Translations under genes and position numbers: made by a program
Assembly: GCA_001804805.1 (NCBI GenBank)
Contig: MHBH01000063.1
Span: forward strand, 1-64,000
From: Lentisphaerae bacterium GWF2_49_21
GTDB taxonomy: Bacteria; Verrucomicrobiota; Lentisphaeria; Victivallales; GWF2-50-93
Direction of reading: 5' to 3'
DNA: 64,000 bases
The notes under the pieces: model-generated
The model's input: the letters and a program-made list of their open reading frames with translations, nothing else
What the model was told of the DNA's origin: nothing
Database searches by the model: none
Shown here: positions 37,181 through 46,279 of the stretch, piece by piece
How positions within the stretch are numbered: the first letter of the stretch is position 1
How the letters are laid out: every line of letters begins with the position of its first letter

Positions 37181-40712
<3,532 letters not shown>

Positions 40713-42668
40713 ATGGGAACAATCAGGATGATGATCTGCATTTCCGGAATAATCTCATTTTTGCTCGCAGGCTGTGCGAAGAAGATCGACGACAATACGC
40801 TCGTAAAGAATACCTACGACAAATATATGTCCACATTGTCATCCGGCAACCTCGAGGAGCTCAAGAAGCTGGTTGCAAAGGACAAGGCCACTGAACTCTC
40901 CAGCCCGCAGGCTCCCGCAATGCTTGAGATGATCAAGGCCATGATGCCCAAAAAATACACGGTCGGCAAGGTTACTGTCACCGGAAATGATGCCGAGATC
41001 GAGGTCGCCGGCGAGAATGAAGGACAGAAGATGACGGGAAACGTCAAGCTTGCGAAGGAATCTGGACAGTGGAAGATAGTGAAGGACAGCTGGAACGTTA
41101 CAATAGATCTGAATGCGGAAATGGATAAGCCTGCAGTTTCAAAGCCGGTACAAGGTACTGGCAAGACTGGCATCCCCGCGATCCATCAGACCTTGTCCGG
41201 ACATCAGGGAGATGTCAGCGGCATGATTTTCCTGCCATATGGAGAAAAACTTGTTTCTATCAGCTATGGCGATTATTCCGTCAGGACATGGGATATTACA
41301 AGCGGAAAGGAGACTGCCAGTCAGAAAATGGAGAATCGTCCTACATGTGTAATCCTCAAGCCGGACGGCAAATCCCTGCTTGTCGCCGATGTATATAAGG
41401 TCATCACGGAAATACCTATTAATGAAAAGGGTGAATTTGGAAGCTTGAAACCATTCATCGCTGAAGGCGGAACCTTTATGGCGTTGTCGAAGGACGGTAA
41501 AAAACTGGCGGTCGCAGACTTTCAGAAGCCTGTAAGGATTTTTGATGCCGCCACAGGAGCATTGCTGACGACCGTCAGCGGCAGTGACAAGATCCGCTGT
41601 CTTGTGTTCAGCCCTGACAATGAATTCCTGGTCGGTGGCGGTCAGGGAAACAGATACAAGGTCTGGAGCACCAAGGACTGGACCGAGAAGAGCTATGACA
41701 TAAAGAAAGTCTCCGCCGACTGTGAGATTACGGCTGTGGCTGTCAGCGCGGACGGGAAATATATGGCGACCGGGCACAACGACAGCAGTATCGTGATATA
41801 CGATTTCAAGCAGAGGAAGGAGATCAAGAACTACTACGTGCAGGATGCGTCCACTGCGGCCGTGGCTTTTTCTGCTGACGGCAAATGGCTTGTGACTGCG
41901 AACAGGAATATCGCTTACGTCTGGGATTCCGCGACTGGCAGGAAGCTGCACGAACTGAAAGGGCATTCCGAAGATGTCATGTCATTGGCGGCATGCATGG
42001 ATCCCTTTTCCATCGCGACAGGTGGAAAAGACAGGAAGATACTTATCTGGCGTGACGGACCGCCTCCTGCAGGAGCGGTTCAGCCTGCGCCAGCGGCGGA
42101 AGCTCCAAAGATTGCCGCCGGCCCATTGCTCGAGATAAGCGGATATAAGAACATGGTGCAGAATGCCGGAGCCAACGACGGCATGAGTTCCTGGAGGAGG
42201 GAGGGGGATGTTTCTATTGAGGCCGGCAAACCGGGCAATCCGTGTTTTGTGATGAAATACGGGGGCGAGTTCATGCAGAAGGTAGATCTGCCTGCTGATG
42301 CCGGGGGCAAGTATGCACTTTTCATTGCACGCGCCTCAAGCGACAGGGTTGAAGAGGGTGACCAGACGGGGCTTCCATATCTCTGGGGGCAGTGGGTAAA
42401 CAGGGCGGATCAGAACAGGTTTGACGGATATCTTAATGCCGACACGATGAAGCTTTCAAATGTAAAGCCGGGCGAATGGGGCGTGATATACGGGATATTC
42501 CAAGTTCCTGCGGTATCTGGAAAAGTCCTTCTAATAGTGAACCAGGCTGACGGTTCTACCCCGCAGAACGGATCTGCCGCGAAGGTGGACGATATCTGGA
42601 TGCTGGTTCTGGCCTCGGAAGCCGATGCCAGGAAAATGGTGGAGACTTACAAAAGGCTTGGCAAGTGA
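40713..42668 (+). CDS. WD40-repeat lipoprotein
   Basis: About 651 residues. The signal peptide ends in the lipobox LLAGC, so the protein is lipid-anchored and exported. After the lipobox comes an NTF2/DUF4878-like domain (KNTYDKYMSTLSSGNLEEL ... MKVTGNVKL-type strands, residues 20-130). Next is a seven-bladed WD40 propeller (blades such as LSGHQGDVSGMIFLP, FSPDNEFLVGGG, VSADGKYMATGHNDSSI and LKGHSEDVMSLAACM). A final unassigned beta domain follows. WD40 propellers mediate protein contacts. The ATG at 40713 has GGGAGG 6 nt upstream. It heads a run of secreted proteins (42735-45557). Confidence 0.85.
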   Translation: MGTIRMMICISGIISFLLAGCAKKIDDNTLVKNTYDKYMSTLSSGNLEELKKLVAKDKATELSSPQAPAMLEMIKAMMPKKYTVGKVTVTGNDAEIEVAGENEGQKMTGNVKLAKESGQWKIVKDSWNVTIDLNAEMDKPAVSKPVQGTGKTGIPAIHQTLSGHQGDVSGMIFLPYGEKLVSISYGDYSVRTWDITSGKETASQKMENRPTCVILKPDGKSLLVADVYKVITEIPINEKGEFGSLKPFIAEGGTFMALSKDGKKLAVADFQKPVRIFDAATGALLTTVSGSDKIRCLVFSPDNEFLVGGGQGNRYKVWSTKDWTEKSYDIKKVSADCEITAVAVSADGKYMATGHNDSSIVIYDFKQRKEIKNYYVQDASTAAVAFSADGKWLVTANRNIAYVWDSATGRKLHELKGHSEDVMSLAACMDPFSIATGGKDRKILIWRDGPPPAGAVQPAPAAEAPKIAAGPLLEISGYKNMVQNAGANDGMSSWRREGDVSIEAGKPGNPCFVMKYGGEFMQKVDLPADAGGKYALFIARASSDRVEEGDQTGLPYLWGQWVNRADQNRFDGYLNADTMKLSNVKPGEWGVIYGIFQVPAVSGKVLLIVNQADGSTPQNGSAAKVDDIWMLVLASEADARKMVETYKRLGK

Positions 42669-42734: not shown

Positions 42735-43217
42735 ATGAAGATCAAAATCTATTTTATTCTAGCATTTCTTGCAGTGGTGGCTGGAGTTCTGCATGCTCTG
42801 CCGGGAACAGGGGGCGGGGCCAACTCCGGCATCGTGAATGCAAACCAGGATGTTGTCAATGTGGCCGTGGATAATTCCAAGGCCAATTCCGGCATTAAGA
42901 TGGGCGGTGCGGAATTCACGAACAGCCAGCTGATTCTCAACTACAACATCAAAGTGGACAATCTGGCGCTGAACAACTCGAAGATAAACTCAGGGATAGA
43001 TGCCGAACTGGCCGAGTTGAAGGACGCTGAAATCACGAACATCAATTCCAATGTCAGGAACCTGGCGATCGACGGCTCGAAAATCAATTCCGGGATATCT
43101 GCAAAAGGCGCAGTTATAGAGAAATCAAAGATAATCAACGAAAATTCCAATGTAGACAATACGGCGATCAAGAAGTCGAAGATCAACTCCGGTGTAAATC
43201 TTGGAGAGCAGGAATAG
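42735..43217 (+). CDS. small secreted repeat protein (SKINSGI repeats)
   Basis: 160 residues with a signal peptide (IYFILAFLAVVAGVLHA). The mature part is almost entirely four tandem repeats of about 33 residues, each with a core like NLALNNSKINSGI or NLAIDGSKINSGI followed by a variable acidic or basic stretch and a Ile-x-Asn-x-Asn joint. The alternating Asn/Ser/Ile pattern resembles beta-solenoid or curlin-like polymers. No known family is recognised. The next gene's ATG begins 2 nt after its stop, with the Shine-Dalgarno inside this gene, so the two are coupled. Confidence 0.8.
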   Translation: MKIKIYFILAFLAVVAGVLHALPGTGGGANSGIVNANQDVVNVAVDNSKANSGIKMGGAEFTNSQLILNYNIKVDNLALNNSKINSGIDAELAELKDAEITNINSNVRNLAIDGSKINSGISAKGAVIEKSKIINENSNVDNTAIKKSKINSGVNLGEQE

Positions 43218-43218
43218 C

Positions 43219-43770
43219 ATGGGAAAAGCCAATACATTTAAAATGATGTCCGCCATGTTCCTCCTTACGGTGTCGGTCGCCTTTTCCAATGGAGGCGAGG
43301 CTGATACGAAGTCTTATGTGGAGTTGGACCAGGGGATCGTAAAGGCCTATAATAACAATCCCAGGAATACAGCTGAAGTCTATGCCAATGCCATGCTGAT
43401 TCTCGAGAAGGCTTTGAAGGAGGAAGGCGGCAACGGTGAGGCCTGGCAGCTGAAGGCCCGGAAACTGATAACCGTATCCTGCTATTATGAGTGCACACAG
43501 TCCATTGATAAGAAACTTTACCGGCAGGCATATGTCTGGGCGAAGCGGGGCGAGAAGAACGGCACGTCTTTAGGGAAGGTCGGCGAAGTGCCGGTCAAGA
43601 ACCTTTATGACTATATGGCATTTGCAATGAATGAACTGAAGGAAATTCCGGTGGTCAAGAACAGCAAGCCGGAGGAACTGTCAATGCAGAATAAAAATGA
43701 ACAACAGAGCAAGAAATTGTATTTTTCTGATTGCGCATCAATCTTTGGATTTCACAGGAACCAAGATTGA
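43219..43770 (+). CDS. secreted helical (TPR-like) protein
   Basis: 183 residues with a signal-peptide-like N terminus (FKMMSAMFLLTVSVAFSNGG). The mature part is helical with alanine-rich repeats (NTAEVYANAMLILEKALKEEG, YRQAYVWAKRGEKNG) suggesting two or three TPR-like units. Function unknown. It follows the SKINSGI repeat protein almost directly, so both are probably made together, perhaps as a secreted polymer and its accessory protein. The last 20 residues (LYFSDCASIFGFHRNQD) do not fit the preceding helical pattern and may result from a 3' change. Confidence 0.68.
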   Translation: MGKANTFKMMSAMFLLTVSVAFSNGGEADTKSYVELDQGIVKAYNNNPRNTAEVYANAMLILEKALKEEGGNGEAWQLKARKLITVSCYYECTQSIDKKLYRQAYVWAKRGEKNGTSLGKVGEVPVKNLYDYMAFAMNELKEIPVVKNSKPEELSMQNKNEQQSKKLYFSDCASIFGFHRNQD

Positions 43771-44006: not shown

Positions 44007-45557
44007 ATGGGTAAACATGCGGTAACTTTCATCGCTATATGCATTCCGTTCATGTTATTGACCCAGGGCTGTTCTTCCGTCGGTTCATACCAGTCCAAGG
44101 AAGTGACAGACAAATCCATCCGTAACGATATTCTCCAGCAGTGCTCCAGATATGAAGGGCCGATGCGCAATCCTGTCATCGTCATACATGGCTTCCTCGG
44201 CTCGAAACTGCGCAACAAAGGTACAGGGGAGGAGCTCTGGGGCTCGTTCAGCTTTATGGATTCTATTTTCGGACCCGGAGACCGGCAGATCCGCGATCTG
44301 GCATGCAGGATGTCAAAAGGAAGCAGCCTGACAGAACTGGACAAGACCGTGGAAGCGTACGCATTCCTGGAGATGGTCAAGGTCCAGATACTCGGAATTC
44401 CGTTCGATGTCAACGCCTATGAGGACATGCTGTCCATACTGCGGAATTCGGGATACACCCAGTATGAAAAGCCGTTGCCCGAAGGCAAGCACTTCTATTC
44501 GCTTTTCCCGTACTACTACGATTGGCGCCGTGATCTGCCGTATAACGCGGCCAGGCTGCACGAATACATCCTTGAGAAAAGGGCGTATCTGCAGAAGGAA
44601 TATGAGAGTCTTTACGGCATTAAGAATTATGATGTCCAGTTTGACATTGTCGCGCATTCGATGGGAGGGCTGCTGACCGGATATTATCTGAGATACGGAG
44701 ACGCGGATCTGCCTGCAGACGGTTCGCTGCCTGAGCTTACCTGGAAAGGCAGCCAATATATCGACAAAATTCTGATCGTCGGCACTCCCAATGCCGGATT
44801 TCTGGACACATGCAGTGAGTTGATCAACGGCTTGCAGGTTGCTTCCGGCACTCCGACTTATCCATCGGCGATGCTTGGAACATTCGCCACGTATTACCAG
44901 ATGATGCCGGTCTACGGCTTCCGCTCTGTGCTTTATGAAGACGACCCCAACGGTGCGGAAGTGGATATCTTCGATCCGGAGGTGTGGATTCAGATGAAAT
45001 GGGGGCTGGCCGATCCGGCTCAGGACAAATATCTGCAGGTAATCCTGCCCGAGGTCAAAGCTCCTTCTGAAAGAAGGGCCATTGCATTGGATCATCTTTC
45101 AAAATGCCTGAAACGAGCCAAGCAGTTTTCCAAGGCGATGGAGGTGAAGGCGAGACCGCCTGATGATGTTGCCATGTTCCTTTTTGCCGGCGACGCGATA
45201 CAGACCAGCCGTACCGCCATGGTGAACCGGAAGACCGGAGAATTCAAAGTCGTCGAATACGCCCCGGGCGACGGCAAGATCCTGATCTCCAGCGCGCTTT
45301 ACGATTTGCGCGAGGACGGCTACTGGACACCGTATATACGTTCGCCGATCACTTGGCAGGGAACCTTCTTCCTGAACGCCGCGCACATGGGGATAACCAA
45401 AAGCAGCGTCTTCAACAGCAATGCCTCCTTCTGCCTGCTTGTCACTCCGAGCCAGAAACAGGACAAGAGGGACAAGAAAACCCTTGAAAAACGACTGGAA
45501 CTGCCCAAGACGATACAGTACAAGGGCGACGGAATGTTCGACGAAAAGGACAAATGA
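44007..45557 (+). CDS. lipoprotein alpha/beta hydrolase, LCAT/PDAT-type acyltransferase or lipase
   Basis: 516 residues. The signal peptide ends in a lipobox-like LLTQGC. The alpha/beta hydrolase core shows the oxyanion strand PVIVIHGFLGSKL and the nucleophile elbow AHSMGG in DIVAHSMGGLLTGYYLRYG; GTPNAGFLD follows as in LCAT-family enzymes. The catalytic Asp and His lie further on but cannot be placed by eye. It should act on lipids in the envelope or outside. The ATG at 44007 has GGAG 7 nt upstream. A candidate terminator lies 35 bp after the stop. Confidence 0.87.
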   Translation: MGKHAVTFIAICIPFMLLTQGCSSVGSYQSKEVTDKSIRNDILQQCSRYEGPMRNPVIVIHGFLGSKLRNKGTGEELWGSFSFMDSIFGPGDRQIRDLACRMSKGSSLTELDKTVEAYAFLEMVKVQILGIPFDVNAYEDMLSILRNSGYTQYEKPLPEGKHFYSLFPYYYDWRRDLPYNAARLHEYILEKRAYLQKEYESLYGIKNYDVQFDIVAHSMGGLLTGYYLRYGDADLPADGSLPELTWKGSQYIDKILIVGTPNAGFLDTCSELINGLQVASGTPTYPSAMLGTFATYYQMMPVYGFRSVLYEDDPNGAEVDIFDPEVWIQMKWGLADPAQDKYLQVILPEVKAPSERRAIALDHLSKCLKRAKQFSKAMEVKARPPDDVAMFLFAGDAIQTSRTAMVNRKTGEFKVVEYAPGDGKILISSALYDLREDGYWTPYIRSPITWQGTFFLNAAHMGITKSSVFNSNASFCLLVTPSQKQDKRDKKTLEKRLELPKTIQYKGDGMFDEKDK

Positions 45558-45689: not shown

Positions 45690-45920
45690 ATGACAGCTGT
45701 TGCTGAAAAAATCTATGAGGAAGTGCTTGATCTCCCTGCGGAAGAGAGGCTTCATCTCATTGACAAGCTTCTTCAAAGCGTTACTCCCATTGATAAATCC
45801 ATAGAAAAGGCCTGGATAGACGAAGCAGAGAGACGGTATAAGGAATACAAGGCAGGTAAGGTCAAGGCCATTCCCGGAGATGAAGTTTTCAGGAAAATCC
45901 AGCGTCGGCTAAAGAAATGA
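45690..45920 (+). CDS. addiction-module antitoxin, TIGR02574-like
   Basis: 76 residues. The sequence pattern (EEVLDLPAEERLHLIDKLLQS, then IEKAWIDEAERRYKEYKAGK and the IPGDEVFRKIQ ending) is that of the short addiction-module proteins encoded upstream of RelE/ParE-type toxins. It would neutralise the toxin and autoregulate the operon. The next gene overlaps by 4 nt (ATGA), the usual arrangement, but that toxin gene is not intact. Confidence 0.85.
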   Translation: MTAVAEKIYEEVLDLPAEERLHLIDKLLQSVTPIDKSIEKAWIDEAERRYKEYKAGKVKAIPGDEVFRKIQRRLKK

Positions 45921-46279
45921 AATATAGATTCCTCCCTGCCGCAGAAACTGACCTTATTGAGTCCATCGACTATTACGAGCAATGCCAGAATGGGCTTGGA
46001 ACAGATTTTTCCATTGCCAACTTCTTGAATTTTGTCGCTGCGTTCGATTACAAAAAATCCAAGTATGAGCGGTTTGAAGACGATTTCCCGAATCCAAATG
46101 TAAGGGGAAAGTTAAGCATGATTGATAAATATGCCTTGCATAGGGAAAAGCTTGTTGGTTTAGATGTTATCAGGCTGAAGGATTATAAGCGTAGATTTTT
46201 CGTTTCGGAAAAAGTGAAGAAGCTTTTCGAGGAGTATAAGTTTACAGGATATTCTTTCATCGAAGTCGAATTGACCTGA
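45917..46279 (+). pseudogene. truncated RelE/ParE toxin fused to the C-terminal part of a DUF1629/imm11-like protein
   Basis: The 120-codon frame begins as a RelE/ParE toxin (KYRFLPAAETDLIESIDYYE, the typical first strand and helices) but stops resembling it at about residue 31 (near base 46009). The rest (DVIRLKDYKRRFFVSEKVKKLFEEYKFTGYSF, seen as RRFFVSEKVKKLFEEYKFTG) matches the C-terminal half of DUF1629/imm11-type proteins. The likely cause is a deletion that joined two genes in frame. The catalytic part of the toxin is missing, so toxicity is improbable. Confidence 0.65.

Follow-up and report, generated by a model that had tools for sequence, protein, structure and literature searches.

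The window (the whole stretch of 64,000 nucleotides analysed here, from contig MHBH01000063.1 of Lentisphaerae bacterium GWF2_49_21) rather likely holds a satellite unit of a surface-fibre system of Lentisphaeria, similar to curli in the way it works, with an exported solenoid protein as its subunit. The unit comprises three genes: REP, for a secreted repeat protein; HEL, for a helical secreted partner; and a gene for an LCAT-like lipoprotein. The repeat family is undescribed in the literature searched, and REP probably serves as a subunit from which a novel type of surface fibre is built. Homologues of REP co-occur, and usually cluster, with a pair of lipoproteins predicted to fold like CsgG.

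REP lies on the forward strand at 42735..43217 and encodes 160 aa; the call is backed by its open frame, homologues, an excess of differences at third codon positions, and a beta-solenoid model. The product begins with a probable signal peptide (residues 1-21, 42735..42797, judged by eye from the sequence) and a short LPGTGGG stretch. The remainder is divided by NSG[IV] motifs spaced 21, 34, 33, and 33 residues apart into a partial repeat of 21 residues with NSGI at its end (42834..42896), repeat 1 of 34 residues (42897..42998), and repeats 2 and 3 of 33 residues each (42999..43097 and 43098..43196), all on the forward strand. Repeat 3 leads into the family's usual NLG tail, here NLGEQE. The original prediction counted four repeats, of which three are full and the fourth is the partial one. 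Its description of a protein made almost entirely of repeats of about 33 residues holds up well: self-identity of the mature protein is greatest (0.34) at a lag of 33, and none of 5000 shuffles reached that value when all lags between 5 and 74 were considered (best shuffle 0.268). The three full units share just 39-52% identity with one another.

The same period runs through the family. Among 128 NSG-to-NSG spacings in twenty-six homologous proteins, 99 are of 33 residues, 11 of 34, and 8 of 32. The 99 units of this family pattern (97 distinct) conserve A2, A5, I7, S10, I12, N14, N16, V19, N21, A23, S27, I29, N30, S31, G32, and I33. The last four positions are no evidence in themselves, because units were picked by NSG[IVL] and this selection fixes N30-S31-G32-I33. 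At the conserved inner positions of the 97 distinct units 0-1% of residues are charged, and charges sit at the positions between. Near the C-terminus, 20/26 REP proteins carry the motif [NST][ST]G[IV][NDK][LFI]G. An [ACG][LM]P step occurs within the first 65 residues of 19/26 REP proteins and of 12/18 proteins of a weaker repeat type, REPH, compared with 4/145 other cluster proteins and 6/185 unassigned ORFs. This suggests that REP and REPH form one class of cargo, though the shared step could equally be explained by shared descent.

As the original prediction had it, the sequences look unrelated to known families: neither the REP nor the HEL product has a match over the cut-off in Pfam or NCBIfam, and a PDB sequence profile search with the repeat-family alignment gave no matches. 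Within the wider repeat family we set aside a DUF4472 match in one member (L032; 29.1 bits against a cut-off of 26.6), as well as matches to OST_P1 (down to 1.1e-15 in one member) and to a hexapeptide model. In those members that were checked singly no stretch passes alone, and we read these matches as sums over low-complexity repeats.

The AlphaFold2 (AF2) model of REP is a beta-solenoid, in agreement with the fold guessed originally, with pLDDT of at least 90 for 111 of the 160 residues and below 50 for residues 1-29. Mapped onto the unit pattern, the model has strands at positions 6-8, 11-17, 20-24, and 28-30. AF2 over-predicts solenoids: given perfect repeats, it produces confident false ones in which charges are stacked in the interior (PMC11795689). 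That worry is eased, not removed, by the modest identity of the window's units and the almost uncharged inner positions. Foldseek with the REP model returned no match at E<=0.001; its rows are generic solenoids (SV2 luminal domains, pentapeptide repeats, pectate lyases), with FapC (9u4u_A) at rank 11 and not significant (E 0.026). The VIA list is topped by the E. coli CsgA fibril (Z 6.5, 88 residues), which is no proof given an rmsd of 8.6 over those residues. Its generic neighbours are pectate lyases, tailspikes, and surface adhesins.

HEL (43219..43770, forward strand, 183 aa) is of a short type, identified by the family alignment and genome matches. Its ATG at 43219 stands one base past the REP stop codon ending at 43217, just as the original prediction of coupled genes with a second start 2 nt on had stated. 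That pair proves to be incomplete: REP and HEL do adjoin, and a third member of the unit, omitted earlier, follows 236 bases downstream of HEL on the same strand. This gene (44007..45557) has copies in relatives and matches the LCAT family PF02450 with 29.3 bits against the Pfam cut-off of 21. Judged by eye, its product looks like a lipoprotein; it differs from LCAT-like lipases in being an apparent lipoprotein linked to a repeat gene. Differences between REP and its homologues pile up at third codon positions, and the coding frame is therefore conserved. Compared with the unit at L053, differences at codon positions 1/2/3 number 29/21/78 for REP, 29/22/74 for HEL, and 54/32/237 for the LCAT-like gene. 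By this measure, taken from sequence comparison, the third-position excess shows all three window genes to be under selection.

Two neighbouring loci deserve mention. A WD40 gene (PF00400) with a lipoprotein-like start, at 40707-42668 on the same strand, ends 66 bases upstream of REP; it does not adjoin the unit in L030, L031, L053, or L055. Downstream, 45690-46279 contains an Unstab_antitox gene (PF09720, 5.8e-18) and, sharing 4 bases with it, an ORF in which residues 28-117 match the C-terminal half only of Imm11 (PF07791, 1.7e-9). The first 27 residues of this ORF are, we presume, RelE/ParE-like, and the ORF is an apparent chimera.

Searches with HEL gave fifteen matches in 12/17 genomes. 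Six are of the short type, 165-209 aa as called; the others are longer (248-288 aa) and, in most families, placed in a main gene cluster described below. Judged by alignment, the window HEL is a short relative of this main-cluster gene. The C-terminus is short in the window-type copies and variable among them. The earlier label 'TPR-like' is weak, as TPR_19 scored below the cut-off (E 0.047) in one of eight family members, and a PDB sequence profile search with the HEL alignment gave no matches. In the genus to which the window belongs, the main cluster showed no HEL, and two of the genomes (G001, G003) lack a HEL match. Five other genomes (G002, G027, G222, G225, G298) have a copy of the LCAT-like gene with 72-87% identity to the one in the window, and they are exactly the five that also carry a short HEL; farther copies (36-57% identity) are placed elsewhere. 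The satellite unit of REP, short HEL, and LCAT-like lipoprotein is thus found in six genomes from several families, and REP is directly upstream in 5/6 of them. In the remaining one, G298, about 10.7 kb of other genes intervene on contig C8 (L054, L074), and several genes in this insert begin with near-identical MKKLMALMSVLVLCVTG-type leaders. The unit is missing from two of the three other genomes in the window's genus, one of which is 77% complete.

The window unit holds no exporter gene; CsgG-like genes are on another contig (C39) of the same genome (G000). Further copies of the repeat are present in this genome: contig C72 has a tandem of two longer REP genes (330 and 299 aa), and on C39 the CsgG-like pair is adjoined by two weaker REPH genes. 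Among sixty genomes (the window's own and fifty-nine relatives), 13/60 have repeat matches at E<=0.1, the window's genome being one of the 13 and three of them being marginal (E 0.03-0.09). The main cluster typically comprises a CsgG-N/FGE-sulfatase gene, REPH, lipoproteins A and B, REP in one or two copies, P140, an LPP20-like gene, and HEL. A further REP is present in some cases, and the cluster also has a DUF2807 'adhesin head' gene, a FlgT_N gene, two small lipoproteins, LP190, and P120. The HMMs behind these family assignments were built in part from proteins so assigned. REP and the A/B lipoproteins share one fetched stretch in 10/15 genomes (L028, L029, L033-L036, L056-L058, L062). In G000, G002, and G015 REPH adjoins the A/B lipoproteins and REP is on a separate contig, and G055 and G330 have REPH-like genes only, one of which adjoins a single lipoprotein.

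Most main-cluster REP proteins have 256-364 aa compared with 160 aa in the window. Five of ten cluster DUF2807 proteins (L028, L035, L056-L058) contain one S[ST]VNSG[IV] motif near the N-terminus; such proteins might act as a cap or tip, going by this single repeat-like motif. The cluster-linked fusion at L028 5300-7168 joins a CsgG-like N-terminal domain (PF03783, 25.5 against 20.8 bits) to an FGE-sulfatase domain (5e-44), and it has homologues in L033, L034, L035, L038, L039, and L058. Between the lipoproteins and REP, G001 and G014 alone carry two large secreted-looking genes of about 1015 and 840 aa (L036 8294-13867, L033 5033-10613). The smaller grouped with the repeat proteins in BLAST clustering, and its L033 copy has no Pfam match.

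The fold of the paired lipoproteins was approached through an AF2 model of one A/B-type protein from C39 (mean pLDDT 65.6). Foldseek gave twenty-five matches at E<=0.001, all of them CsgG chains (best 1.5e-6), with a loose superposition on CsgG (target-normalised TM 0.39-0.55 in the 25 matches). VIA scored CsgG chains at Z 13-15 (top 6l7a_A, Z 15.1, 167 residues, rmsd 4.2 A); the next folds were XCC0632 (10.1), FlgT (10.0), PelC (9.7), and TolB (8.7). The model thus has the core fold common to the CsgG, PelC, FlgT, and TolB-N lipoprotein folds and is nearer to CsgG than to the others, at Z 13-15 compared with about 10. A CsgG-type exporter is therefore predicted by fold and not by sequence. 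The alignment of the CsgG-like family with E. coli CsgG in hhalign is not significant (E 0.092, probability <1%). The eighteen sequences at E<=1 from the PDB sequence search with that alignment (best 0.017) include no CsgG and are for the most part helical proteins, TPR or other, and PF03783 does not match the A/B lipoproteins of L028 or of the window's own genome. Since the sequence link to CsgG is not significant, the exporter reading draws on fold and genomic context.

That context extends across the phylum. A strong CsgG-like match (E<1e-80) is present in 14/387 genomes and a repeat match (E<=1e-5) in 13/387, the window's own included, in a sample of the phylum for which the first look scored only a few candidates per genome. 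All thirteen repeat-bearing genomes are among the fourteen, and all fourteen are within the window's order or class. The sole exception, G021, has a strong CsgG-like gene (L061 9164-10696) and no repeat match. Fisher's test for this co-occurrence gives 2e-23, uncorrected for kinship and assuming that both searches covered the same 387 genomes. Four further genomes, whose CsgG-like matches are weak and partial (E 1.6e-8 at best), were left out of the count; one of these, G333, may be a true distant relative. A scan of 84,980 species genomes, for which only the CsgG-like alignment was used, gave twelve loci; it relied on two short peptide patterns, which cannot pick up distant relatives. The titles of eleven loci read Lentisphaerae, Lentisphaeria, Victivallales, Victivallaceae, or Victivallis, and the twelfth, titled 'bacterium', is inside a contig of G014, which belongs to the same order as the window. 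Seven stretches in viral contigs matched a pattern and none was confirmed, and plasmids gave no match.

By analogy with curli, REP would cross the inner membrane by means of its signal peptide and remain unfolded in the periplasm until exported through an outer-membrane channel of the CsgG-fold lipoproteins encoded on C39. Outside the cell, templated folding could turn the 33-residue repeats into a beta-solenoid, and stacked Asn/Ser rungs would let subunits join end to end. HEL would most likely be a periplasmic or surface accessory of the window REP, and the LCAT-like lipoprotein may be a linked lipase or acyltransferase. Short and equipped with its own accessory gene, the window REP itself would most likely be a subunit of a minor or variant sort. 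The argument for a minor subunit is weakened by the main-cluster REP proteins of G014, which are equally short (161 and 185 aa).

The repeat proteins might instead be exported solenoid surface proteins (an adhesin, a coat, or an ice- or glycan-binding protein) acting as monomers or in a lattice and forming no amyloid-like fibres, with the CsgG-fold lipoproteins still their exporter. We consider this unlikely. It gains from the many non-fibre proteins that have solenoid folds, among them the pectate lyases, tailspikes, and adhesins near REP in the VIA list, and from the 'adhesin head' gene in the cluster. It is countered by the CsgA fibril heading that same list, poor as the superposition is, and by inner Asn residues and open-ended repeats that resemble the curlin rules as given in the available text of PMC10192328. 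We give rather little credence to a reading in which the lipoproteins serve another envelope assembly (PelC-, FlgT-, or LpoB-like) and the repeats form a periplasmic or envelope scaffold. FlgT, PelC, and TolB do have the same core fold, FlgT_N and LPP20-like genes are part of the cluster, and there is no significant sequence link to CsgG; against this, CsgG chains score higher and take all twenty-five best Foldseek places, and the repeats track the lipoproteins in 13/13 genomes.

It is very improbable that the unit is what decay has left of a main cluster and has no present function. The short, variable C-terminus of HEL and the absence of the unit from two of the three other genus genomes, one of them 77% complete, would fit such decay. 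They are outweighed by the third-position excess relative to L053 in all three genes, and by open frames and a satellite unit kept in six genomes of several families. We retain the reading that the unit is a satellite of a fibre system resembling curli. If it is true, unrelated repeats have been put to use in the curli plan of a repeat subunit and a CsgG-type channel, and this in bacteria from which the literature searched holds no report of curli or Fap. It would also offer a differently built CsgG-fold exporter for comparison with the known channel, and a strict-rule 33-residue solenoid repeat usable as a fibre scaffold. With the DUF2807 head proteins that have one repeat-like motif, and with the satellite units, both the mixing of subunits and nucleation would become open to direct tests.

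In curli, CsgA is exported through CsgG, with N22 as the targeting segment (PMC10192328, PMC12822426). A survey with curli HMMs reported Proteobacteria, Bacteroidetes, Firmicutes, and Thermodesulfobacteria (PMC3521004), and a survey of GTDB v226 also reported Desulfobacterota and Nitrospirota among others (PMC12822426); Lentisphaerota are not named among the curli-bearing groups in the available portions of these two papers. The matches listed in our literature search include no report of curli, CsgG, or fibres in Lentisphaerae. Pfam curli models miss the repeat family: over the cut-off, Curlin_rpt (PF07012), CsgE, and CsgF each matched 0/15 genomes, with weak Curlin_rpt matches in three (best E 0.012). 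In each search one control genome was over the cut-off, and E. coli was among the matching controls each time. By definition, then, the system is not curli. The original comparison with a curli-type subunit and accessory pair survives in part, through co-occurrence and clustering with CsgG-fold lipoproteins and a HEL relative in the cluster, and fails as regards sequence kinship.

What the system has in common with curli is a secreted tandem-repeat subunit (a predicted beta-solenoid), several subunit genes per cluster, and a linked CsgG-fold lipoprotein. Curli differs in its curlin repeat of about 23 residues with an N-x5-Q pattern (as described in PMC10192328), compared with 33 residues rich in Asn and Ser here, and in having one CsgG of 277 aa where this system has a pair of CsgG-like lipoproteins, called at about 440-570 aa, whose C-terminal part is helical/TPR. 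Fap subunits are made of imperfect repeats stacked as a solenoid, as predicted for REP, and differ in almost always having three repeats (both as stated in the available text of PMC12822426). It is quite possible, if somewhat less likely than not, that the Lentisphaeria system is a class of functional amyloid in its own right, distinct from curli and Fap and so far found in Lentisphaeria alone, with 33-residue Asn-ladder solenoids as subunits, a paired CsgG-fold exporter that perhaps forms a mixed ring, and portable three-gene units that add variant subunits.
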